From a virus, in the IMG/VR virus record IMGVR_UViG_3300023174_000226, positions 1 through 52,875 of that record: a DNA stretch of 52,875 nucleotides, one strand, 5' to 3'. The position numbers were made by a program, and so were the translations under genes. The notes under the pieces are model-generated. The model did no database searches, was not told the origin of the DNA, and saw only the letters and a program-made list of their open reading frames with translations. Of the stretch, positions 11,280-51,567 are shown one piece after another; position 1 is the stretch's first letter, and the number at the start of each line of letters is the position of its first letter.

Positions 11280-11303
11280 TCTGTCTTAGCGTTACCTTTG
11301 AAT

Positions 11304-11336
11304 GGGGGTAGGGATTTATTTCTCTACCCCCTTTCT
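11304..11336 (+). terminator. intrinsic terminator after the major capsid gene
   Basis: GGGGGTAG (11304-11311) pairs with CTACCCCC (11324-11331) across a 12-base loop, then CTTTCT-type U-rich sequence. It would set the end of the abundant capsid transcript. Confidence 0.85.
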
Positions 11337-16475: not shown

Positions 16476-19400
16476 ATGGCTGATATCAATTCCAATATAA
16501 AAGTTAATATAGATACGTCAGACGCTCTGGCACAACTAAAACTTTTACAGCAACAGATATCAGCCTTTCAGCAAGCAATGCGAAATGCAGGTGCACAAAA
16601 TGCTTCTGCTGCTGCTGCAATGCAGCAAAATCTTATAACCTCAATTAATGCTACTGGAAAATTCAGAGCCAACGTTCAAACAATAAAAACAAGTGCAGAA
16701 TCATTTACAGAATCTTTAGAAAAAAATAAATTTTCTATTGGAGAATACTTTAGATATGCTGGCGGTGCTTCAAAAACTTTCGGTAAATTGTTTAAATCAG
16801 AGTATGCAACTATAACCCAGGTAGCAAAAGAACGAGTAAAAGAACTACAAACCCAATACATCAAACTTGGTCGTGATGCCACAGGTGCTATGAAGGCTAT
16901 TGCTGTAAAGCCACTATCACTTGATATGACTAATCTTGCAACTAAAACACAGATTGCAGCACAAAAACAACAACTCTTTAATCAGTTAATGACACAGGGT
17001 TCTACAAGTCTTCTAAACTTTGGTAAAAATACTCAATGGGCTGGTCGCCAACTTATGGTTGGTTTTACAATCCCATTAACAATGATGGGTTCTGCTGCTG
17101 CTAAGGCATACATGCAAATTGAACAAGCATCTGTAAAGTTTAGACGTGTTTATGGTGACATGAATACAACTACAGAAGAAGCCAATAAGATGGTTAAGTC
17201 TGTACAAAGTCTTGCAAATGAATTTACAAAGTATGGTGTTGCAGTTGCAGATACTATGGATATGGCTGCTCAGGCAGCCGCTATGGGTAAAACTGGTGCA
17301 GACCTTATTGCACAAATAAATAATGCTGCAAAACTTTCTATCTTAGGTGGGGTAGACCAGACAAAGGCTTTAGAAACTACTATTAGTCTTACAAATGCTT
17401 TTGGAGTTGCAGCAGAAGATTTAGGTAAAAACATTGACTTCTTGAACGCAGTTGAAAACCAAACTACACTCAGTATTGATGATTTAACTACTGCTATTCC
17501 AAAGGCTGCCCCTGTTGTTAAACAACTTGGTGGAGATGTAAAAGATTTGGCATTCTTTATGACAGCAATGAAAGAAGGTGGAATTAACGCATCTGAAGGT
17601 GCTAACGCAATTAAATCTGGTTTGGCATCATTGATTAATCCATCAGAAAAAGCATCAAAATTTCTTCAAGGATTTGGTATCAATGTTAAAGGTATTGTTG
17701 AAGCAGATAAAGGTAATCTAAAGAAAACAGTTGTTGATTTTGCTAAAGCACTAGACACTCTTGACCCACTAAACCGTGCTCGTGCTATTGAACAAATGTT
17801 TGGAAAGTTCCAATTTTCCAGACTTTCAACATTGTTCCAAAACGTAATTGCCGAAGGTAGCCAAGCATCTCAAGTAGCAGAATTATCTAAAAACTCAGCA
17901 GAAGAATTAGCAATCTTGTCAGAACGAGAAATGAAAAAGATTTCAGATTCTCCAATGTTTAAATTTCAAAAATCTATGCAAGATATGCAAGCAAAACTTG
18001 CTCCAGTTGGAGAAGCATTCTTAAAGGCTGTAACACCAATTATTGAATTTGTAAGCAAGATTCTAGATGGTTTTAATAATCTGGGTGAAGGAACTAAAAA
18101 CTTTGTATCAATGTTAGTTTTAGCAGTAGCAGGTATTGGTCCTGTACTACTAATGACATTTGGTTTGATTGCAAACGGTGTAGCAAATATTATGAAACTA
18201 TTTACAAATATGAAAGGTTTCATTAATAAGACAACTAAGCCATCAGATATTCTTGGTGAACAAACTAGTTATATGACTACAGAACAGTTGAAGGGTGCAG
18301 CAGTTGCAGCATCTCTTGACCAAGCACATGCCAAACTTCGTCAAACATTTACCTCTGAAAAAGCAGCATTAGATGAATTAACTAGGTCATATAGACAAGC
18401 AGTAGAAGCCCAACAGCAATATTCTGGTGTTCCAGGAATACCAACAGGAAATCCAAATGCTGTTCCTAAAAGATATGCTAATGGTGTTTCTATGGTTCCT
18501 GGTCCAAGAGGTGCAGGAGATATTATTCCAGCCTTGCTGTCTCCAGGTGAAGCAGTTATACCAGCCAAACATGCACAAAAATATGCACCTGTAATTGCTG
18601 GTATGGTTGCTGGCAATCTTCCAGGATTTGAAGATGGAACTACTGGCGTTGGAATGCGTCAAAGTACTATTGGTCCACTTACTCAAAAACAAACAGAGGG
18701 TATGCTTAGAACTGGTAAATCACTTAAAGAGATTAGCGATGAAGTTTATGCTGGTCCATATGGAGCAGTTCCTCCAGAACACTATGTAAGACAGATTGAA
18801 CCAACAAGTGGGCACTCATTTCCTGCATTCCAAGTTGGAGGAATTTATGAAAAAGCAGACGGTACAAAGGTATTTGTAAAGCCACAGGTAGACCTTGTTT
18901 CAGCAATGGCAGAAGTTCGTGGAACTCAAATTGCAAGAGATGCTCATCAACTAATAACTCCACAACAAAAAATTGTTACAATGATGGACCCAACAGACCC
19001 AGAAGGAAAACGTAAGTTCATTGCACTTGAATCACAATTAAATGAACAGATTGCAAATATTTCTACATCATTTACAAAACAGCAATATATTAAACAACTT
19101 GTAGCATCTCTTCTTCGTGGAGATAAGGACCTTGGAATTGGTAATCTTGGTGGAGATATTCTTGCAGATGTTGGTACTGCAGGTGTTTTCCAAACTGCAT
19201 CTGGTAAGCGTAAACTTGGTGGCTCAATTAACTCTATGGAAGAACAAGCCATCATCAATCTTCTTGGTGTAAAGGGCGGTGCCAAGAGATTCTTTGCTGA
19301 ATCAACAGCAGAAATTGCTAAGAGTATGACACCTGCAGAATATGATGCCGCTATGAAGGCTGAAATTCAATCAGTTATGCCAAGACTTCAAACCACAATC

Positions 19401-22400
19401 GCTGGATTTGGAAACCTTAATCCAGAAGAAAAAGCGGCATACATGGCTATGCAGCAAAGACTTCAAGCAGGTATGGGTGTTGACTGGGGTAAATATCAAG
19501 CAATGCATTCTGCAGTAACTCCAAAGAAGTATGCTCTTGGTGGTATTGTTGGATATGATGGCGGAACCAATAACGTTAAGCATGAATCTGACTACACTCC
19601 ACAAGAAATTTATGAGTTGCTAAAAATTCAAGAAACTCATGCTTATGGCGAAATGAATATCAATGACCCAAAGGTTCAAGAACAACTAAAAAGAGTCTTT
19701 GCAGAATCTACTCCAGAAGACTTTAATAAGTTTAAAGTTCTTAGCAATCTTACTATAAGTTTGCCAGGTAAGTTGAATCAATTAATTAAAGAAACTAATA
19801 CTGGTGTAAGTGGACCAATATTTAGTCAAGCCTATAATGCTTTGCGTGGTAAATTAAGTAAAACTGCAAAAATGTCTGGTGTTAAAAATATGTCAGATGC
19901 TCAAATCCTTGAAGATATTATTGGAACAAGGTTTGCAGGAGAGTCATTAATTAAAGATTCAATATTTGCAGGAATAGTAGAGCAAACTATTAATGAGCAA
20001 ACTGCCAATACATCTGGTATTGGTGGTGCAGCAAATCTAATTTGGGAAAGAACAAAACAAGTTGGTACAGTTCGTCCTAAACGTGATGGTTTAGATGCAC
20101 CTAAATGGAATGATTTGATTCGAACAATGTTGCAAAATGATGAACTTGTTTTAGTTGCAGGAACCGATAAGGGATTCCCAGTTGCCCAAACTCCTTTTGG
20201 TGGTCGTTTTGGAAGAATTAAAGCAGATGGTATTGGTTCAAGTAAAACTGCCGAAGGACGTGCCCTTCGTAAATTAGCACAAGATGCAGCAAATGCTTGG
20301 GCTAGGGCAGGAAACAAATCAGCACCTTTACCTATTGTACAAGATAATAATGGAAATATGGTTCCACTAACTTGGAGAGACAATAGTGCAAAGCCAGGAA
20401 GTTTTTCAACAGATGATTTTCCTGCATATGATGATACAAGTAAAAAATATGCATCAGACTTATCTTTTGCCCCTGGAGGATTTGATGTTCTTAAAAATCT
20501 TAAATTCTTTGCTAAAGGTGGTGTTGTTCCTGGATATTCTGGAGGAACTTCAGGTGCAGTTCCAGCACCTCAAGAATTTTTACTTGCAAAACTTGGACAA
20601 TATCGTTCTCAAGTAGTTGGTTCAGATACTTATTCAAATGCCGCTGGCACAGCAACATATAGGGACAAGTCACTAGAAACATATGAGTCAGTTATTAGAC
20701 TTCATAGAGATGGACAATATACTGAAGCATATAAGAAAGCAATGAACCTATTTGAGTATCTTGCTTCTGTAGATGAAAAACGTGTAGTTCATCCAGGACT
20801 ACAAAAAACTGGTCTAAAAATGGAACAAGTTTATCCAGACCTATATTCATATGAAGATGCTATTGCTGCTTTTAAAAAGGGTGGCGGAATAGAAAAGGGT
20901 ATTGAGTGGGAGGAAACAGAGCCTATTCAACTTTCTAACGGTGGAATTATTCCTGGGTATGCTAAGGGAAGTTTTGGTATTCCTGGTATGGGACAAAAGA
21001 AGTCTTCATATTCTGATGCAGAACTAAAACACAACATTTTACTTGAACTAGTTGATTTAAAGAAACAAGGATTATCAGATGATGCAGTTATTCAATCAAT
21101 CAAATCTAATCCACAATTTGCTCTTGCATTAGCACAATCCAAAGAGGCTAGTTCTAACGGAAGAGAAAGACTAAATACAGCATCTATGGATAGGCTGATG
21201 CGTTTGAGAAGCGATGAGGCTCTTGATAATCAGATTGCTAGAAGTGCAGAGTATTTAGAACAACAGTCATTTGGGTATAAAGCAAAAAAGATAGCAAAGG
21301 CTGCCCCAGGCAAAATTGCAAATACTGCAAAGGGTGTAGCGTATGGTGCTGGAGCGTTGACAATGGCTGTTGGTTCAGCAATAGGTAAGACTGCAGCAAC
21401 TAACCCAGCAGGATTTAAGGCTATGACTAGTGGTTTAGGACAACTTGCAAAAATGGTTTTGGCAATGTTTGGACTTCATCTAAATAAGGGTGGAGTAATT
21501 CCAGGATATGCTAATGGTGTATTCTCAGTTCCAGGACCAAAGGGTGCTGGTGATGTAGTTCCTGCAATGCTGTCTCCTGGTGAGGCTGTTATTCCTGCTA
21601 ATCGTGCTGCTCAACACCGTGGACTAATTAAAGGAATGATTGCTGGTAATTTGCCAGGGTATGCAAAGGGAACTATAATTCCAGGATACGTTGATGGCAA
21701 AGATGAAGTTAAAAGAATACCAGGAATGCCAGCATCCGCAGTTACCGTTACTTCTTTCGATGCTGATAGTCAGGCTATGCTTGCAGAACAATCAAAAGTT
21801 GTTGCTTTAGAAGAAGCCTTAGTTGCAAAAAAGAAAGAAATAACTCGTTTAAGTCGTGAACAAATTGAAGAACAGATGGCTACTGAGGATAAGTCTTATA
21901 GAGAACTTATAGATAAACGAAGAGAATTTGCTGCAAAACTTGCTATGACTGATGAAGAAAGATTAAAGCAGCAGGAAAATGAAAAACGAATTCTTGAAAA
22001 AGAAGAAGTTTGGATGAATAAAAAGAATGTAGAAGAAAAGAAACAATCTGGTCTTTCTAAACTATTTACTAGAAGTAAGTTTACTGGAAAAGTTCAAGGT
22101 GCTATGTATGGTGCTACTGCTGCTGTTGGGGCAGTATCTGCTATGGGTGGTCCAATTGGTGAGGCTGCAGGTGCAGCACTTCCTGCTATTGGTGCAATGA
22201 CAGGTGCTATGTCTATGATTCCTGGTCCTGCTGGTATGGTTGTTGGTGGGTTAATGGCGGTAGCAACAATTTCAGCACAAGTAGATGCACATTTTAAAAA
22301 AATTAGAGAAGAATCCTATAACTTAGCACAGTCTATGGGTGCTGGCAATAAGGCAATTATGAAGTTTGCAGAATTTGCAAAAAAGGTTAGTGCTACTGAA

Positions 22401-38464: not shown

Positions 38465-38500
38465 ATGGGGGTAGGTGGTTCGCTATCTGCCCCCATTATT
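38465..38500 (+). terminator. hairpin between SSB and polymerase genes (partial terminator)
   Basis: ATGGGGGTAG (38465-38474) pairs with CTGCCCCCAT (38487-38496), one G-T wobble, 12-base loop. The following bases are only mixed A/T, so it may be a weak terminator or an mRNA end stabiliser letting SSB exceed polymerase. Confidence 0.65.
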
Positions 38501-45732: not shown

Positions 45733-46266
45733 ATGTCAATTGAAGATTTAACAGTAGAGCATCTTGATGAGATGAATAAGGTTGTGGAGAAATATCTCCA
45801 GGGTGAAGAGCCTACCCAAATATCTAAAGAACTTGCACTACCAAGACAAAAGGTAGTAGCACATATTAACCAGTGGCGTGTTATGGCTTCTGACAACGCT
45901 GCAATTCGTGCTCGTGCCAAAGAAGCCCTTGTAGGTGCAGATACACATTATAATAAACTAATTAGTAAAGCATATGAGGTTATGGATGATGCAACTACAG
46001 TTGCTAATCTTGGTGCGAAGACTGCTGCAATTAAACTTGTTATGGATATTGAAAGCAAACGTATTGACATGCTTCAAAAAGCAGGTCTACTAGAGAATAA
46101 AGAACTTGCAGAAGAGATGCTAGAGATTGAACGTAAACAGGATATCCTTGTTGGTATTCTTAGAGATATTGCAAGTGAATATCCGCAGGTACGAGATGAG
46201 ATTATGCGTAGACTATCGCAGGTATCTAAAGAACAAGAGGTAATTACAATTGTCAATGTTCAATGA
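45733..46266 (+). CDS. terS: terminase small subunit
   Basis: 177 residues. It recognises phage DNA and regulates the large subunit. Residues 8-60 include an HTH (EMNKVVEKYLQGEEPTQISKELALPRQKVVAHINQW). Long helices follow (AIRARAKEALVGADTHYNKLISKAYEVMDDA, KTAAIKLVMDIESKRIDMLQKAGLLENKELAEEMLEIERKQDIL), fitting the oligomerisation core. The C-terminus (ITIVNVQ) would contact the large subunit. It overlaps the large-subunit gene by 17 bases, the classic order. Confidence 0.87.
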   Translation: MSIEDLTVEHLDEMNKVVEKYLQGEEPTQISKELALPRQKVVAHINQWRVMASDNAAIRARAKEALVGADTHYNKLISKAYEVMDDATTVANLGAKTAAIKLVMDIESKRIDMLQKAGLLENKELAEEMLEIERKQDILVGILRDIASEYPQVRDEIMRRLSQVSKEQEVITIVNVQ

Positions 46267-48049
46267 TTTCTTTGAAGTCCTAAAAAGTAATGTATTTGCA
46301 GAAAATCCAGTAGATGTAAAAACATTTGTTGAGGGTGAAGACTATCTTGCACAACCACAGTTATCTCAAATACAATATGACATTGTTGAAGCAATGTCTC
46401 AAATCTATAGGTTAGAAGAAGTCATTGAACTTTTGGGGGAAGAAGAGGGTCGCAGATACTACAATAAGTATACTAAGAATGAAGTTATCCTACAACTTGG
46501 TAAAGGTTCTGGTAAAGACTTTGTTTCTACTGTTGCTTGTTGCTATATCGTTTATAAACTACTTTGTCTTAAAGACCCTGCTCGTTATTTTGGTAAGCCA
46601 TCTGGAGATGCCATTGATATTATTAACATTGCTATTAACGCACAACAGGCTAAAAACGTTTTTTTTAAAGGCTTTAAAACAAAAATTGAAAAATCTCCCT
46701 GGTTTGCTGGTAAATATTATGCAAAGGTAGATAGCATTGAGTTTAATAATGCTATTACTGTTTATTCTGGACACTCAGAACGTGAATCCCATGAAGGTCT
46801 TAACCTTATCTTAGCAGTACTAGATGAGATTTCTGGTTTTGCACAAGAGGTTGGAACTGGTAACGACCAAGGAAAGACCGCAGATAACATCTATAAAGCC
46901 TTCCGTGCCTCCGTAGATTCTCGCTTTCCAGACTTGGGAAAAGTAGCCCTACTATCCTTTCCACGCTTCCCTGGGGACTTTATTAGCCAGAGATACGATG
47001 CTGTTATTGCTGAAAAAGAAGTGGTAACAAAGAAGCATAAGTTTATTATGAATCCAGAATTACCAGAAGATGCAGAAGGAAATACCCTTGAGATTGAATG
47101 GGATGAGGATACTATCTTATCTTATAAGTTCCCTGGAATGTTTGCTATCAAGCGACCAACTTGGGTTGTAAACCCTACTCGTAAAGTTGACGATTTTAAA
47201 TTAGCCTTTTATACAGACCTTGGAGATGCTATGCAACGTTTTGCTTGTGTGCCAACCTATATGTCTGATGCCTTCTTTAAGCAAACGGAAAAAGTAAGAG
47301 CATGCATGACCATCAGAAACCCCATTGACCCATCTAAAAGATTTGACCCATCATTTAAGCCAGACCCAGACAAGAAGTATTTTGTACATGCTGACCTTGC
47401 ACAGAAGCACGACAAGTGTGCTGTGGCTATTGCTCACGTTGAAAAGTGGGTAAATATTCAGGTAGTTAAAGACTATCAGCAAGTAGCACCTATCGTAGTA
47501 GTAGATGCAGTAGTATATTGGGAGCCAAGAGTAGAAGGACCTGTTAACCTTTCAGAAGTTAAGCAGTGGATTCAAAATCTACGCAGACAGGGTTTTGACA
47601 TTGGAATGGTATCTTTTGACCGTTGGCAGTCATTCGATATCCAAAATGAACTAAAGCAAGTTGGAATTAAAACTGAAACTGTTTCTGTTGCTAAGAAACA
47701 CTATGAAGATATGGCTATGCTTGTATATGAGGAAAGACTTGCTATGCCAGCCATTGAGTTGCTTTATGAAGAACTTACAGAACTAAAGATTATGAAGGGT
47801 AATCGTGTAGACCACCCTAGAAAATCCTCTAAAGACTTGGCAGATGCTGTTTGTGGTGCTATCTTTGGTGCTATCTCGCATACACCTAAAGACTTAAATC
47901 AAATGGTAGAGATTCACGAGTTTAGAGATATTCGTAAAAAGACTGAAGAAATGCATGATTTTGATAAGCGTAATATTATTGAACGCAATAAGCCAGAACA
48001 AAAAGACTTGGATGCTTACTTTAAACAGTTCAACATAAATATAATGTAG
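46250..48049 (+). CDS. terL: terminase large subunit (ATPase-nuclease)
   Basis: 599 residues from TTG 46250, which lies 9 bases after AAGAGG; an ATG at 46256 in the same frame is the alternative. It cuts concatemers and pumps DNA into the head. Walker A is GKGSGKD (84-90) and Walker B is ILAVLDEIS (Asp192-Glu193). The RNase H-like nuclease has Asp382 (VHADLAQKHD), Asp457 (VSFDRWQ) and Asp529/Asp532 (SSKDLADAV). Motifs, lengths and spacing fit a complete enzyme. The next promoter begins on the base after the stop codon. Confidence 0.95.
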   Translation: MSMFNDFFEVLKSNVFAENPVDVKTFVEGEDYLAQPQLSQIQYDIVEAMSQIYRLEEVIELLGEEEGRRYYNKYTKNEVILQLGKGSGKDFVSTVACCYIVYKLLCLKDPARYFGKPSGDAIDIINIAINAQQAKNVFFKGFKTKIEKSPWFAGKYYAKVDSIEFNNAITVYSGHSERESHEGLNLILAVLDEISGFAQEVGTGNDQGKTADNIYKAFRASVDSRFPDLGKVALLSFPRFPGDFISQRYDAVIAEKEVVTKKHKFIMNPELPEDAEGNTLEIEWDEDTILSYKFPGMFAIKRPTWVVNPTRKVDDFKLAFYTDLGDAMQRFACVPTYMSDAFFKQTEKVRACMTIRNPIDPSKRFDPSFKPDPDKKYFVHADLAQKHDKCAVAIAHVEKWVNIQVVKDYQQVAPIVVVDAVVYWEPRVEGPVNLSEVKQWIQNLRRQGFDIGMVSFDRWQSFDIQNELKQVGIKTETVSVAKKHYEDMAMLVYEERLAMPAIELLYEELTELKIMKGNRVDHPRKSSKDLADAVCGAIFGAISHTPKDLNQMVEIHEFRDIRKKTEEMHDFDKRNIIERNKPEQKDLDAYFKQFNINIM

Positions 48050-48058
48050 TGGTATAAT
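48050..48058 (+). promoter_or_regulatory. extended -10 promoter of the PA14/holin operon
   Basis: TGG plus TATAAT at 48053-48058, right after the terL stop. The expected transcript start is near 48065, within the hairpin at 48062-48083. Confidence 0.7.
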
Positions 48059-48061
48059 AGT

Positions 48062-48083
48062 CTTGTTGGGCACTTCCAACAAG
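48062..48083 (+). promoter_or_regulatory. hairpin overlapping the Shine-Dalgarno of the PA14 gene
   Basis: CTTGTTGG (48062-48069) pairs perfectly with CCAACAAG (48076-48083) around a 6-base loop. The last three bases (AAG) begin the Shine-Dalgarno AAGGAGA (48081-48087). Read-through RNA from terL would carry the full stem; RNA from the promoter at 48053 would lose about three pairs. Confidence 0.6.
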
Positions 48084-48093
48084 GAGACTACAA

Positions 48094-50034
48094 ATTAATA
48101 ACAAAACCTCAAGATTTATACTAGCAATATTTTTAGCCTTTTCCTGTTTATTTTTTCCATCAACAGCCTCTGCAGAAACAAGGGCTGAGTATGATGCAGT
48201 TGTAGCAGAAGCACAGGCTCTAGTTGACGCTACCAAAACCGCTTTGACAGTTGCTCAAGAAGCATACCAGACAGCCTTGAATGAAAAGACTACAATAGAT
48301 TCCACGGTAGAGTCAAATAAAACAATTTTAGATAATGTAATTCTAGATGTTCAAAGTAAGCAATTGCTGGTAGATAAAGCACAAGTAGCCTTAGATTTGG
48401 CTAGAGAAGACTACAATACAAAATTAATTTCAGACCCTAACTGGATTAGACCTGACAAAGAAGTCACACAAACCATTGATGTTCCATATACAGTTCAAGT
48501 TCCATATACAGAGTTAGTTCCAAGAACAGAACTTGTACCGAGAACAATCCTAGTTCCTAATACAAGGATGGAGTCTTATTTAGATTATGAGCCAGTGGAA
48601 GTCACAACTCTAGTTCCAGGTGGACTTACAGCAACTTCTTACAACAGACAGGGATATAACAATGCCCCACCACTACCAACAGAAACAGAAACACCACTAT
48701 CAACTAAGAATGTTCCTAACATTGATTTTCAATGGGGCAGTGGTTTAGTTTTAAACTCTGGAAAGGCTGAAGATGTTTTAGTAAAATTTGAAGGTAACCT
48801 CATGGTTCCACAAGATGGATGGTATAGTTTTTATGCTCCAGGAGATGACGGAGTTAAGTTAACAATTGCTGGCATGAGCCTTATCAATGATTGGCGTGAC
48901 AAAGGTGGAGGTGGCAGCACTTCACAAGAAGTATGGATTAGAGCAGGTATTTTCTATCCAACTACACTATACTATTATGAAAATGGTGGTGGAGCATGGG
49001 TACAACTTTATTCAAAAATTTCTGGTGGTAGTATGCAAATTGTTCCTGCATCATGGTTTGGAGAAAGAACAGTAACAGAAATAGTATATCAACCAGTTGT
49101 AAAGTACTATGAGGTAACTTATTACACAGAAGAAACAGTTTACGATGAGGTAGTTGTCTATGATGAAATAACTTTTTATAGAGAAGAAACTAGATATAGA
49201 AAAGAAGATATCATTATTATTGTTCCAGATGAGGATGCTACTGCCCCACTAATCAATGACCCAGGATTGCTGTTGGTTGTTGGCATAGCACAAAATAACT
49301 TAGATGAAAAACAATCTACTTTGTTATTTGCAATATCAGATAGGGAGAAACTGCAACAGGATTATGAGTCATCTTTGTTAGTTCAAACAGAAAAAGCAGG
49401 TATAATTGAAGTAGCATCTCAGGATGTAATAACAAAACAGGAGGAATTAGTTGCAGTCCAACAAGAACTTGACTCCATTCCACCTTACGAAGAGCCAGCA
49501 CCTACACCTACGGAGACCAAGGAACCTGTTGAAAAGCCAACAGAAGTTATCCCAGAACCGCTACCAGACCCAGAGCCGCCAGTGTCCCCCGAACCCAATC
49601 AACCTGAGTTACCAGTAGATGTAGCCACGGTAGACCCACAATCACTTTCAAATGAACAAGTAGCAGAACTTATATCTGTAGCAAATGAAATTCTAAATAA
49701 TTCAGAACAAGGCTCACCAGAATATGAACAGGCTCTTGACGCTCTATTTGTAGCAGCCCAAGCAGATGACATTGTAATCTCTGAAGAACTTGCAGCCATT
49801 CCAGGAGCAGCAGCATTGGTTGGTGCAATTAACTTTATGGGTAACGTTGGTTCTGACATGTCTCCAAAAGTAAGAGAAGAATCTAAAAAGATTGTTGTTA
49901 CAGCAGTTGTTGCTGTTGGAGCAGCAGTCAACGCAGCAACAGGAGCAGCACTTTCTGCAGCAGCACCATCAGCCGCAGCATCTGCATCAGCAGGTGGCTC
50001 AGGTGGAACATCAAGTAGAAGGAGGAACGATTAA
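48094..50034 (+). CDS. secreted, membrane-anchored PA14-domain protein with an AUU start
   Basis: 646 residues if it starts at ATT 48094, 6 bases after AAGGAGA (48081-48087). No ATG, GTG or TTG occurs in frame between the upstream stops (48055, 48058) and a TTG at 48244, which would discard the signal peptide. From ATT, residues 1-27 are a clear signal peptide (KTSRFILAIFLAFSCLFF, cleavage after ASA). A helical region (about 30-105), Val-Pro-Tyr/Arg-Thr repeats, a PA14-like sugar-binding domain (about 182-308: GLVLNSG, GWYSFYAPGDDGVKLTI, NDWRDKGG) and Tyr/Glu-rich repeats follow. Then come a helix, a Pro/Glu stalk, an Ala/Val membrane-like segment near 600-635, and a basic end. It precedes two holin-like genes; a role at the cell surface during lysis, release or exclusion is inferred. 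Confidence 0.72.
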   Translation: MNNKTSRFILAIFLAFSCLFFPSTASAETRAEYDAVVAEAQALVDATKTALTVAQEAYQTALNEKTTIDSTVESNKTILDNVILDVQSKQLLVDKAQVALDLAREDYNTKLISDPNWIRPDKEVTQTIDVPYTVQVPYTELVPRTELVPRTILVPNTRMESYLDYEPVEVTTLVPGGLTATSYNRQGYNNAPPLPTETETPLSTKNVPNIDFQWGSGLVLNSGKAEDVLVKFEGNLMVPQDGWYSFYAPGDDGVKLTIAGMSLINDWRDKGGGGSTSQEVWIRAGIFYPTTLYYYENGGGAWVQLYSKISGGSMQIVPASWFGERTVTEIVYQPVVKYYEVTYYTEETVYDEVVVYDEITFYREETRYRKEDIIIIVPDEDATAPLINDPGLLLVVGIAQNNLDEKQSTLLFAISDREKLQQDYESSLLVQTEKAGIIEVASQDVITKQEELVAVQQELDSIPPYEEPAPTPTETKEPVEKPTEVIPEPLPDPEPPVSPEPNQPELPVDVATVDPQSLSNEQVAELISVANEILNNSEQGSPEYEQALDALFVAAQADDIVISEELAAIPGAAALVGAINFMGNVGSDMSPKVREESKKIVVTAVVAVGAAVNAATGAALSAAAPSAAASASAGGSGGTSSRRRND

Positions 50035-50213
50035 TGAAAAAATTTTTAAATGACCTATTGGGTCAAGCATGGACACTCCTTGGTATGTTTGTAGCATGGC
50101 TGGTTCTTGAGGGTTCTGCAAAAGAAGTTGTAGGATATGCCATCATTGGAACATCTGTTCTATGGATGATTACTTATCCACTTAGAAATCCAAAAGACAA
50201 GGAGGAAGAATAA
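50034..50213 (+). CDS. holin-like small membrane protein
   Basis: 59 residues; AAGGAGG (50019-50025) 8 bases before an ATG that overlaps the PA14 stop (TAATG). Two hydrophobic segments are seen, AWTLLGMFVAWLVLEG and VVGYAIIGTSVLWMITYPL, with a charged C-terminus RNPKDKEEE. Short proteins with two membrane spans beside an endolysin are typical holins. Either this or the next gene, or both, should set lysis timing. It is coupled by TAATG to the next gene. Confidence 0.7.
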   Translation: MKKFLNDLLGQAWTLLGMFVAWLVLEGSAKEVVGYAIIGTSVLWMITYPLRNPKDKEEE

Positions 50214-50506
50214 TGAGACTATTTGGTAATGTATTTATGCGTATTGTTGCTACCTTTGTTGCTTCTGCACTTGGTGTAGTTGGTGCTGGTAGCGTAGCAA
50301 GCGGTATTAGTGGTGTCGAGATTCCTATTTGGTTTAGTGCTGTAATGGGTGGTATCTTGGCAGTAGCAAAGGTAGTAGAGTTACTAGCCTTAGCATTCCT
50401 TGAAGATGGCAAACTATCTCGTAATGAGATTAATGCTGCTTTCCGTCAGACTATTGCTCTTAAAGATGTAGCACAAGACGAAGAGACATCTAAGCCTAAG
50501 AAATAA
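50213..50506 (+). CDS. second holin-like membrane protein
   Basis: 97 residues with two hydrophobic segments: VFMRIVATFVASALGVVGAGSVASG and IPIWFSAVMGGILAVAKVVELLALAFLEDG. It ends with a charged cytoplasmic tail (KLSRNEINAAFRQ, DEETSKPKK). The IPIW...AVAKVVE pattern resembles holins of actinophages. It overlaps the previous holin-like gene, so the two may form a holin/antiholin pair. A large terminator-like hairpin follows its stop. Confidence 0.75.
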   Translation: MRLFGNVFMRIVATFVASALGVVGAGSVASGISGVEIPIWFSAVMGGILAVAKVVELLALAFLEDGKLSRNEINAAFRQTIALKDVAQDEETSKPKK

Positions 50507-50507
50507 C

Positions 50508-50536
50508 TTGACAAACCCCTTTCGGTAGTTTATAAT
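50508..50536 (+). promoter_or_regulatory. consensus sigma70 promoter
   Basis: TTGACA at 50508-50513, exactly 17 bases, TATAAT at 50531-50536: the best sigma70 match in the window. The -10 lies in the loop of the hairpin at 50513-50561. Confidence 0.85.
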
Positions 50537-50563: not shown

Positions 50564-50803
50564 ATGTCAATGACTTTTGACGAATGGCTACAACATGGCT
50601 TAACACAAGGATGGGTTGGTCCTGCTGTATGCAGTACACACGATGGAATTCCTACCACTAGAGATGAAGATTTAGAGTGGGAAACTGGAGACCCATGCAT
50701 CCATGTATTGAGATTGTATGAAGATGAAGCAACCAAGTTGGCTGTGGAAGAAAATCATGCTCCGTCTGTATGGCGAGCAACAAATAGTGGTTACACTGTA
50801 TAA
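50564..50803 (+). CDS. small conserved actinophage-type protein, unknown function
   Basis: 79 residues. Pattern: TFDEWLQHGLTQGWVGPAVCSTHDGIPTT, then WETGDPCIHVLRLYED and VEENHAPSVWRATN. I recognise this layout (a Trp-rich start, VCSTHDG, DPCIHVLRLY and the NHAPSxWR end) from actinobacteriophage genomes, where it has no known function. Cys, His and Asp residues could bind a metal. It is made from the promoter in the hairpin loop, with GAAAGGGG 7 bases before the ATG. Confidence 0.8.
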   Translation: MSMTFDEWLQHGLTQGWVGPAVCSTHDGIPTTRDEDLEWETGDPCIHVLRLYEDEATKLAVEENHAPSVWRATNSGYTV

Positions 50804-50812
50804 TTAAATAAT

Positions 50813-50885
50813 TGGGCATTAACTCAGTTGGCAGAGTGTTCGACTGTTAATCGAAATGTCCCTGGTTCGAACCCAGGATGCCCAG
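50813..50885 (+). tRNA. tRNA-Asn (anticodon GTT)
   Basis: A full cloverleaf: acceptor TGGGCAT/ATGCCCA, D stem ACTC/GAGT, anticodon stem TTCGA/TCGAA with loop CTGTTAA, T stem CCTGG/CCAGG with loop TTCGAAC, discriminator G. It reads AAC/AAT, codons heavily used in the Asn-rich tail genes. Confidence 0.93.
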
Positions 50886-50982
50886 CAGAGACCAGACACG
50901 CAGACTTAGATTCGGTGGCTTAACAGAAATACTAGTAAAGACTGTTACAGATGTTGTTCCTATCTGGGTTGTCAAGGAGCAT
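50886..50982 (+). other. spacer between the tRNAs, no gene seen
   Basis: 97 bases with no open frame of note and no T-arm (GGTTCAA-type) sequence. It has short pairing possibilities only. It is probably trimmed away when the two tRNAs are processed. Confidence 0.5.
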
Positions 50983-51054
50983 GCCACCTTAACTCAGCGG
51001 TAGAGTGCCATACTTGTAATATGGAGGTCAACAGTTCAAATCTGTTAGGTGGCT
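50983..51054 (+). tRNA. tRNA-Thr (anticodon TGT)
   Basis: Cloverleaf: acceptor GCCACCT/AGGTGGC, D stem ACTC/GAGT, anticodon stem CCATA/TATGG with loop CTTGTAA, T stem AACAG/CTGTT with loop TTCAAAT, discriminator T. It reads ACA, a very common Thr codon in these phage genes. Confidence 0.93.
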
Positions 51055-51062
51055 CCGATGGA

Positions 51063-51071: not shown

Positions 51072-51120
51072 AGTATTACTATGAACATTCATAGAATACA
51101 TCTTGAAAGGAAGTATTATA

Positions 51121-51567
51121 ATGACAGAAAAAGTTGCAGTTTATAAAGAACCATTTCCAAAGGCAAAGCGTGGAGATGGCTTTAAGAACATGGCTTCATA
51201 CCGTAAGCACCCACACCGTGGTGTTGACTGGTCAGTAGCCGCACATAGTCCAATTAAGGGAATTACTGGTGGACATGTTATGGTAACAAAGTGGACAGAC
51301 GTTCTTGGAAACATTGTTATTCAGTCTACATATGACAAGCATTTCATTCTTTATGCACACCTTGCAAAGCCATCACCTCTAAAGGTTGGCGATGAAGTTG
51401 TTGCAGGAGTGACAGTGATTGGTGAAGTAGGTGGCGGTAAGGATACACCTAGCGGTACAGCCAGTACTGGGGCACATCTCCACGTCACATATGGAACAGT
51501 CCAGGACCTAGTATCAGCAGACATCAGCAAACTTGCTGACCTGTTTGCAAAACTAGACGGAAAGTAA
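51121..51567 (+). CDS. M23 (LytM-type) peptidase, probable endolysin
   Basis: 148 residues from ATG 51121, 7 bases after GAAAGGAAG; an in-frame TTG at 51103 overlaps that site and is rejected. Zinc peptidase motifs are complete: His32-x3-Asp36 in HPHRGVDW, His80 in LYAHL, and His119-x-His121 in GAHLHVT. Surrounding strands (GHVMVTKWTDVLGNIVIQS, SPLKVGDEVVAGVTVIGEVGG) fit the LytM fold. It cuts peptide cross-links in peptidoglycan. No signal peptide or wall-binding domain is present, so it needs a holin to reach the wall. The zinc-ribbon gene follows after 3 bases. Confidence 0.88.
   Translation: MTEKVAVYKEPFPKAKRGDGFKNMASYRKHPHRGVDWSVAAHSPIKGITGGHVMVTKWTDVLGNIVIQSTYDKHFILYAHLAKPSPLKVGDEVVAGVTVIGEVGGGKDTPSGTASTGAHLHVTYGTVQDLVSADISKLADLFAKLDGK

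Follow-up and report, generated by a model that had tools for sequence, protein, structure and literature searches.

Only a few cellular genes are known to have conserved near-cognate start codons. One of these, infC, starts with ATT in Escherichia coli and with ATC in Streptomyces (PMC5472188), while in Staphylococcus aureus it starts with AUA (PMC13009471); these AUU, AUC and AUA starts are repressed by IF3 (PMC5472188, PMC13009471). Streptomyces sigR has a GTC start that is likewise repressed by IF3 (PMC5472188). For S. aureus, PMC13009471 puts the output of near-cognate starts at about 10% of that of AUG, and it cites the AUU start of E. coli pcnB as limiting expression. The relatives of the mechanism considered here (infC, pcnB, sigR, cvfC1 and ccpN) are all cellular, and no relevant precedent for AUU starts in phages was found in the open-access papers searched.

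The window analyzed here is the whole of a 52.9 kb phage record, IMGVR_UViG_3300023174_000226 (52,875 nt). An AUU gene of 646 amino acids sits between terL (46250-48049) and a holin-like two-helix gene (50213-50506); its features are collected in Table 1. It shares with infC the start class, which is kept across divergent relatives with AUG avoided, but infC is cellular and self-regulating, whereas the phage gene encodes an exported protein and has its own promoter and a 5' stem. The actinobacterial sigR also uses a non-canonical start for control; however, this start is GTC, the product is a cellular sigma factor and the control was shown experimentally, whereas for the phage gene we infer it. 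In the available part of PMC13009471, S. aureus cvfC1 (AUU) and ccpN (AUA) resemble the phage gene in that a near-cognate start, conserved among relatives, is offset by a strong (extended) Shine-Dalgarno (SD) sequence and gives about 10% of AUG output, but both encode cytoplasmic cellular proteins, and that part mentions no promoter-proximal stem. According to the same part, AUU also keeps the pcnB product low, although pcnB is a single cellular gene and not a multi-protein module.

Table 1. Features of the AUU gene and its leader (positions in the window)
Feature	Position	Strand	Basis
Promoter-like site: -35 TCAACA, 17 nt, extended -10 TGGTATAAT (48050-48058)	48030..48058	+	10/12 matches, TG before -10
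5' stem-loop, 8 bp (CTTGTTGG / CCAACAAG), loop GCACTT	48062..48083	+	Perfect inverted repeat, 48062-48069 / 48076-48083
Shine-Dalgarno AAGGAGA, 6 nt before start codon	48081..48087	+	Sequence
ATT start codon	48094..48096	+	Relatives, protein alignment, leader and protein censuses
Putative exported PA14 display protein, 646 aa	48094..50034	+	Reading frame, relatives, AlphaFold2 model
Sec signal peptide, INNKTSRFILAIFLAFSCLFFPSTASA, then E	48094..48174	+	Sequence; in-frame purifying selection
Predicted mature N-terminal end, ETRAEYDAVVAEAQ			
First coiled-coil stalk, residues 30-109	48181..48420	+	AlphaFold2 model, pLDDT about 90
PA14 domain, residues 188-318	48655..49047	+	Pfam PF07691, E 3e-10; Foldseek
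Second coiled-coil stalk, residues 391-460	49264..49473	+	AlphaFold2 model
C-terminal segment GSDMSPxVREE, hydrophobic helix and basic tail; putative membrane anchor	49849..50031	+	Common to genes with different bodies

Downstream lie the holin-like gene, whose small hydrophobic product has the PHROG label 'nuclease' (E 4e-20), and, at 51103-51567, a gene for an M23 endopeptidase; they likely form a lysis region headed by the PA14 gene. Genes for tRNA-Asn(gtt) (50813-50886) and tRNA-Thr(tgt) (50983-51056) lie between these two, and a perfect consensus sigma-70 promoter (TTGACA, 17 nt, TATAAT; 50508-50536) is found upstream of a 79-aa frame at 50564. Elsewhere in the window, a 103-nt repeat (18472-18574 and 21505-21607, 75% identical) inside a 2873-aa tape-measure-like gene encodes GPxGAGDxxPAxLSPGEAVIPA motifs, and two similar strong hairpins at 11302-11334 (GGGGGTAG...CTACCCCC) and 38465-38497 (GGGGGTAG...CTGCCCCC) are likely terminators. 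The terL gene is closest to those of Streptomyces phages (about 54%), a similarity that is no more than a hint of an actinobacterial host; from the kind of metagenomes in which the AUU gene occurs, we read its phages as probably infecting freshwater bacteria. Cellular genomes contained no close relative, the only PA14 match being one of 31% in a Caldilineaceae MAG, and neither the PA14 protein nor its C-terminal segment turned up in cultured phages.

Three observations of an earlier sequence-only reading concerned the start of this gene: the frame lacks ATG, GTG and TTG from its upstream stops to 48244, a signal peptide is encoded at 48094-48174, and an ATT at 48094 follows an SD sequence. All three were borne out. 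In-frame stops TAA TAG lie at 48055-48060, inside and just past the -10 box, 11 codons without a canonical start separate them from ATT 48094, and the first ATG, GTG or TTG in frame after the stops is TTG 48244, well within the mature protein. An alignment of start codons in 28 near relatives from the viral collection, a check which that reading had proposed, gave ATT in 27, ATA in one (L014) and ATG, GTG or TTG in none. Since these 28 separate contigs agree, an assembly error is ruled out, as is a polymorphism creating an ATG. Among PA14-family genes, 60 of 61 had no canonical in-frame start upstream. Across an alignment of 20 diverse proteins, ATT shares its column with the ATG or TTG of relatives, and the signal peptides of relatives L064 (ATG) and L080 (ATT) are almost identical. 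For codons 2-20, pN/pS in the ATT frame was 0.30 and 0.19 in two clades, compared to 0.5-2.4 in shifted frames, indicating that these codons are under purifying selection as protein. By this comparative evidence, ATT 48094 is the initiation codon of the 646-aa PA14 gene, that is, a codon other than ATG, GTG or TTG occupies a conserved initiator position.

The start class is kept well beyond the near relatives. A census anchored on the protein, covering 80 distinct 5' regions from PA14-family genes, in which L010, L024, L139 and the ambiguous L032 were assigned by eye, found ATT in 56, CTG in 6, ATA in 1, ATC in 1, TTG in 12, GTG in 1 and ATG in 3; by class, 64 begin with ATT, ATA, ATC or CTG, 13 with TTG or GTG and 3 with ATG, the ATG count including L032-L034, where a TTG five codons in and preceded by AAAGG may be the real start. 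By comparison, of 193 further genes that have an SD sequence and encode 200 aa or more, taken from the window and from seven long relatives, 162 start with ATG (Fisher p 3e-38 against 3/80). A leader-anchored scan after GTCTGCnAGGGGG that allowed any NTN (pattern B) recovered 61 distinct starts, namely 33 ATT, 24 ATA, 4 ATC and none of any other kind, the third base thus being any but G. Pattern B alone is an unbiased NTN test, as patterns A and C admitted ATN only, and the automatic calls were off by one or two codons in about 12 leaders (GTA, TTA etc.), which by eye are ATH. The AUA-start members include L143:7974, L149:6526 and L159:3152. This large comparative set supports the earlier suggestion that the weakness of AUU is a deliberate feature comparable to that of infC; the tie to initiation-factor levels that the same reading raised is plausible.

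A general use of AUU by these phages was rejected, as ATG dominates their other genes and a scan for further genes with a conserved AUU start, run on the window together with the seven long relatives, gave none. A weak start as a trait of all exported proteins was also rejected, because other signal-peptide genes on the same contigs (MTSLKKPLIA..., MNSFKKIA... etc.) start with ATG. The leader composed of promoter, stem and SD sequence was found once per genome where it was recognised; given this single leader and the ATG starts of other genes and other exported proteins, a weak start is typical neither of the phage at large nor of its exported proteins. A second exported family lies directly after terL (MTSLKKPLIAIASAV... 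/ MNSFKKIA...; L098, L099, L102, L108, L115 and others) and has ordinary ATG starts and no leader stem. Judged from these genes, several phage proteins are exported from the infected cell.

The promoter element TGnTATAAT is kept in relatives, including those where the upstream DNA is not terL, and its position suggests that the transcript likely starts at about 48064-48066, 6-8 nt past the -10 box and inside the 5' arm of the stem. The cores of the stem covary (GTTGG/CCAAC, GTTAG/CTAAC, GTCAG/CTGAC, GTCAA/TTGAC and GTTAA/TTAAC), and among 37 distinct 5' arms the complement was present in the arm's own leader in 78% of cases, compared to 15% after the 3' halves were swapped. The short leader alone folds better than shuffled sequences (z -2.95 in the window; mean z -2.55 over 93 leaders), whereas a 101-nt context does not (z -0.56). 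Spacing from the GGAG-type core to the start codon was 6.8 +/- 1.3 nt over 93 distinct leaders. The 5' stem-loop and SD leaders of Bacillus subtilis aprE and E. coli ompA stabilise their mRNAs. The stem described here may be similarly placed at the 5' end, directly before the SD sequence; it covaries and begins a few nt past the -10 box, the transcript start being predicted from the promoter. Those leaders, however, give high expression from AUG, while here the stem is joined to a near-cognate start.

The product looks, from its sequence, like a putative carbohydrate-binding, membrane-anchored display protein. Its PA14 domain matched PF07691 (40.4 bits, with a curated cut-off of 24), and Foldseek matched this part to sugar-binding PA14 domains of adhesins (E about 1e-7). 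In the AlphaFold model, whose mean pLDDT of 72 and pTM of 0.31 leave the overall arrangement uncertain, a signal helix and a long coiled coil are followed by the PA14 domain, which beta stalks surround, and by a second coiled coil. PA14 adhesins such as MpAFP and RTX adhesins and yeast flocculins are similar by Pfam and fold, but the present protein is phage-encoded and has coiled-coil stalks and a C-terminal hydrophobic segment.

Genes with AUU, AUA or AUC starts (AUH genes) have the leader and signal peptide in common and carry different bodies: in some, PA14 is combined with coiled coils or follows 'DDPLTVAA', and others have beta-rich domains of another kind or long PT- or A-rich stalks. 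Complete AUH genes end in a related segment, in which (G)NxGxDMSPxVREE... precedes a hydrophobic helix that leads through a Gly/Ser stretch to a basic tail; the C-terminal motif test missed ten near-cognate genes where the stretch examined was too short or the contig or frame ended early. One member, L143, combines a non-PA14 body and long Thr/Ala- and Pro/Thr-rich stalks with the shared C-terminal GSIGADM segment. A leader of this kind, with the stem GTCAG/CTGAC, also precedes five genes with an ATG start (L082, L083, L087, L091 and L093). They represent a different version, and the two of them that are complete lack the C-terminal segment. A link between the weak start and the C-terminal anchor is only suggestive, because L064 and L184 have ATG and anchor together. 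The leader and signal peptide constitute an expression module that is conserved and apparently mobile, used by a family of exported phage proteins.

Several other readings of the start region were considered. The ATT could be an internal isoleucine codon, with translation beginning upstream at another non-canonical codon or entering by frameshift from an upstream frame. The near-cognate set is indeed almost exactly that of the three isoleucine codons, a fact that also counts against our proposal, and in leader group B the proportions of ATT, ATA and ATC (33/24/4) are similar to those of interior isoleucine codons (1320/853/191), as selection on an internal isoleucine would give. We nevertheless find this reading very improbable: an in-frame stop occurs within the leader of 71 of 134 near-cognate genes and abuts the start codon in 15 of these, as where TAA immediately precedes ATT in L015 (TAA-ATT), L016 and L021; the SD spacing is optimal for ATT; spacer length varies, with frame kept only downstream; and the leucine and methionine codons CTG, TTG and ATG occupy the same column among relatives. 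Initiation at a downstream canonical codon (TTG 48244 in the window), where gene callers limited to ATG, GTG and TTG place the start, such that no signal peptide would be made, can be given next to no credence. It would delete a signal peptide that is under purifying selection, and the first downstream canonical codon varies in position from 3 to 145 codons in.

The sequence-only reading had further proposed that a hairpin pairing with the first bases of the SD sequence holds expression down together with AUU; on this view the stem-loop would conceal the SD sequence, as a switch or thermometer does. Its inverted repeat is present and the stem covaries, and SD bases A81, A82 and G83 are able to pair with 48062-48064 in the window, as most of the SD sequence does in L015 and L017. 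The lock itself is not supported and seems quite unlikely. Across 93 leaders the SD sequence was mostly free in 36 and mostly paired in only 12, so that sequestration was rejected as a conserved feature. Rfam 15 contained no family above its gathering threshold (one chance-level match, 20 bits with a threshold of 60). Moreover, as the predicted transcript start lies in the 5' arm, the pairing bases 48062-48064 are probably largely missing from this promoter's transcript. The conserved stem probably has another role, such as protection of the mRNA 5' end, which would suit it better than an SD lock. It is also conceivable, although we think it unlikely, that AUU is a real but unregulated start, a weak codon that is tolerated, passed on by descent and offset by the strong SD sequence. 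AUU is common to closely related sequences, and promoter and stem point to a good mRNA supply. Against this, a PA14-domain tree, many branches of which have weak support and whose domain seems to recombine, requires at least 13 switches from one start class, strong or weak, to the other, yet AUG is still rare; the codon drifts among ATT, ATA, ATC and CTG and hardly to ATG; and the same phages do start their other genes with ATG.

We therefore favor, with good confidence, the reading that this gene, which has a promoter of its own, retains a start of the AUU/AUA/AUC class because AUG would overproduce the protein or remove control by IF3. In the proposed mechanism, a host-type extended -10 promoter would make a short-leader mRNA whose 5' end folds as a stem-loop; a strong, well-spaced SD sequence would then set the ribosome on AUU, which initiator tRNA would read with a third-position mismatch. 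The product would be an exported and probably membrane-anchored stalk bearing a carbohydrate-binding PA14 or other domain. A dedicated mRNA, protected at its 5' end and equipped with a strong SD sequence, would be combined with an output throttled at the start codon. A ribosome-ready mRNA with a weak codon would be an odd way merely to make little protein, which suggests control at initiation. The comparisons show the start position, the conservation of its class, the near-exclusion of AUG, the promoter-stem-SD module and its single use per genome. Low output would be expected from the near-cognate starts of S. aureus (about 10% of AUG, PMC13009471); the examples of infC and Streptomyces sigR suggest that the start would respond to IF3, and the stem may stabilise the mRNA. 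The TTG and few ATG versions that persist indicate that stronger starts are tolerated in places.

A more speculative extension, which we regard as possible but doubtful, is that host IF3 serves the phage as a sensor. By analogy with infC, an AUH start would block synthesis of the surface protein as long as free IF3 is abundant and allow it once the IF3:ribosome ratio falls in infection, and infC-type control would have been adopted and passed between unrelated display proteins as a module of promoter, stem, SD sequence, AUH start and signal peptide. No phage-encoded IF3 was found on the window's contig, which may be a fragment.

Gene finders limited to ATG, GTG and TTG truncate the AUU gene or misplace its start, masking the export of its product. 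IF3-dependent or dose-limiting initiation in a virus is now directly testable by simple reporters. In a large set of uncultured phages, the start of one gene keeps to the AUU/AUA/AUC class and AUG is nearly excluded, which amounts to a repeated evolutionary test of start strength, and the comparative data suggest that weak, possibly regulated synthesis of this exported protein is actively preserved in the phage family.
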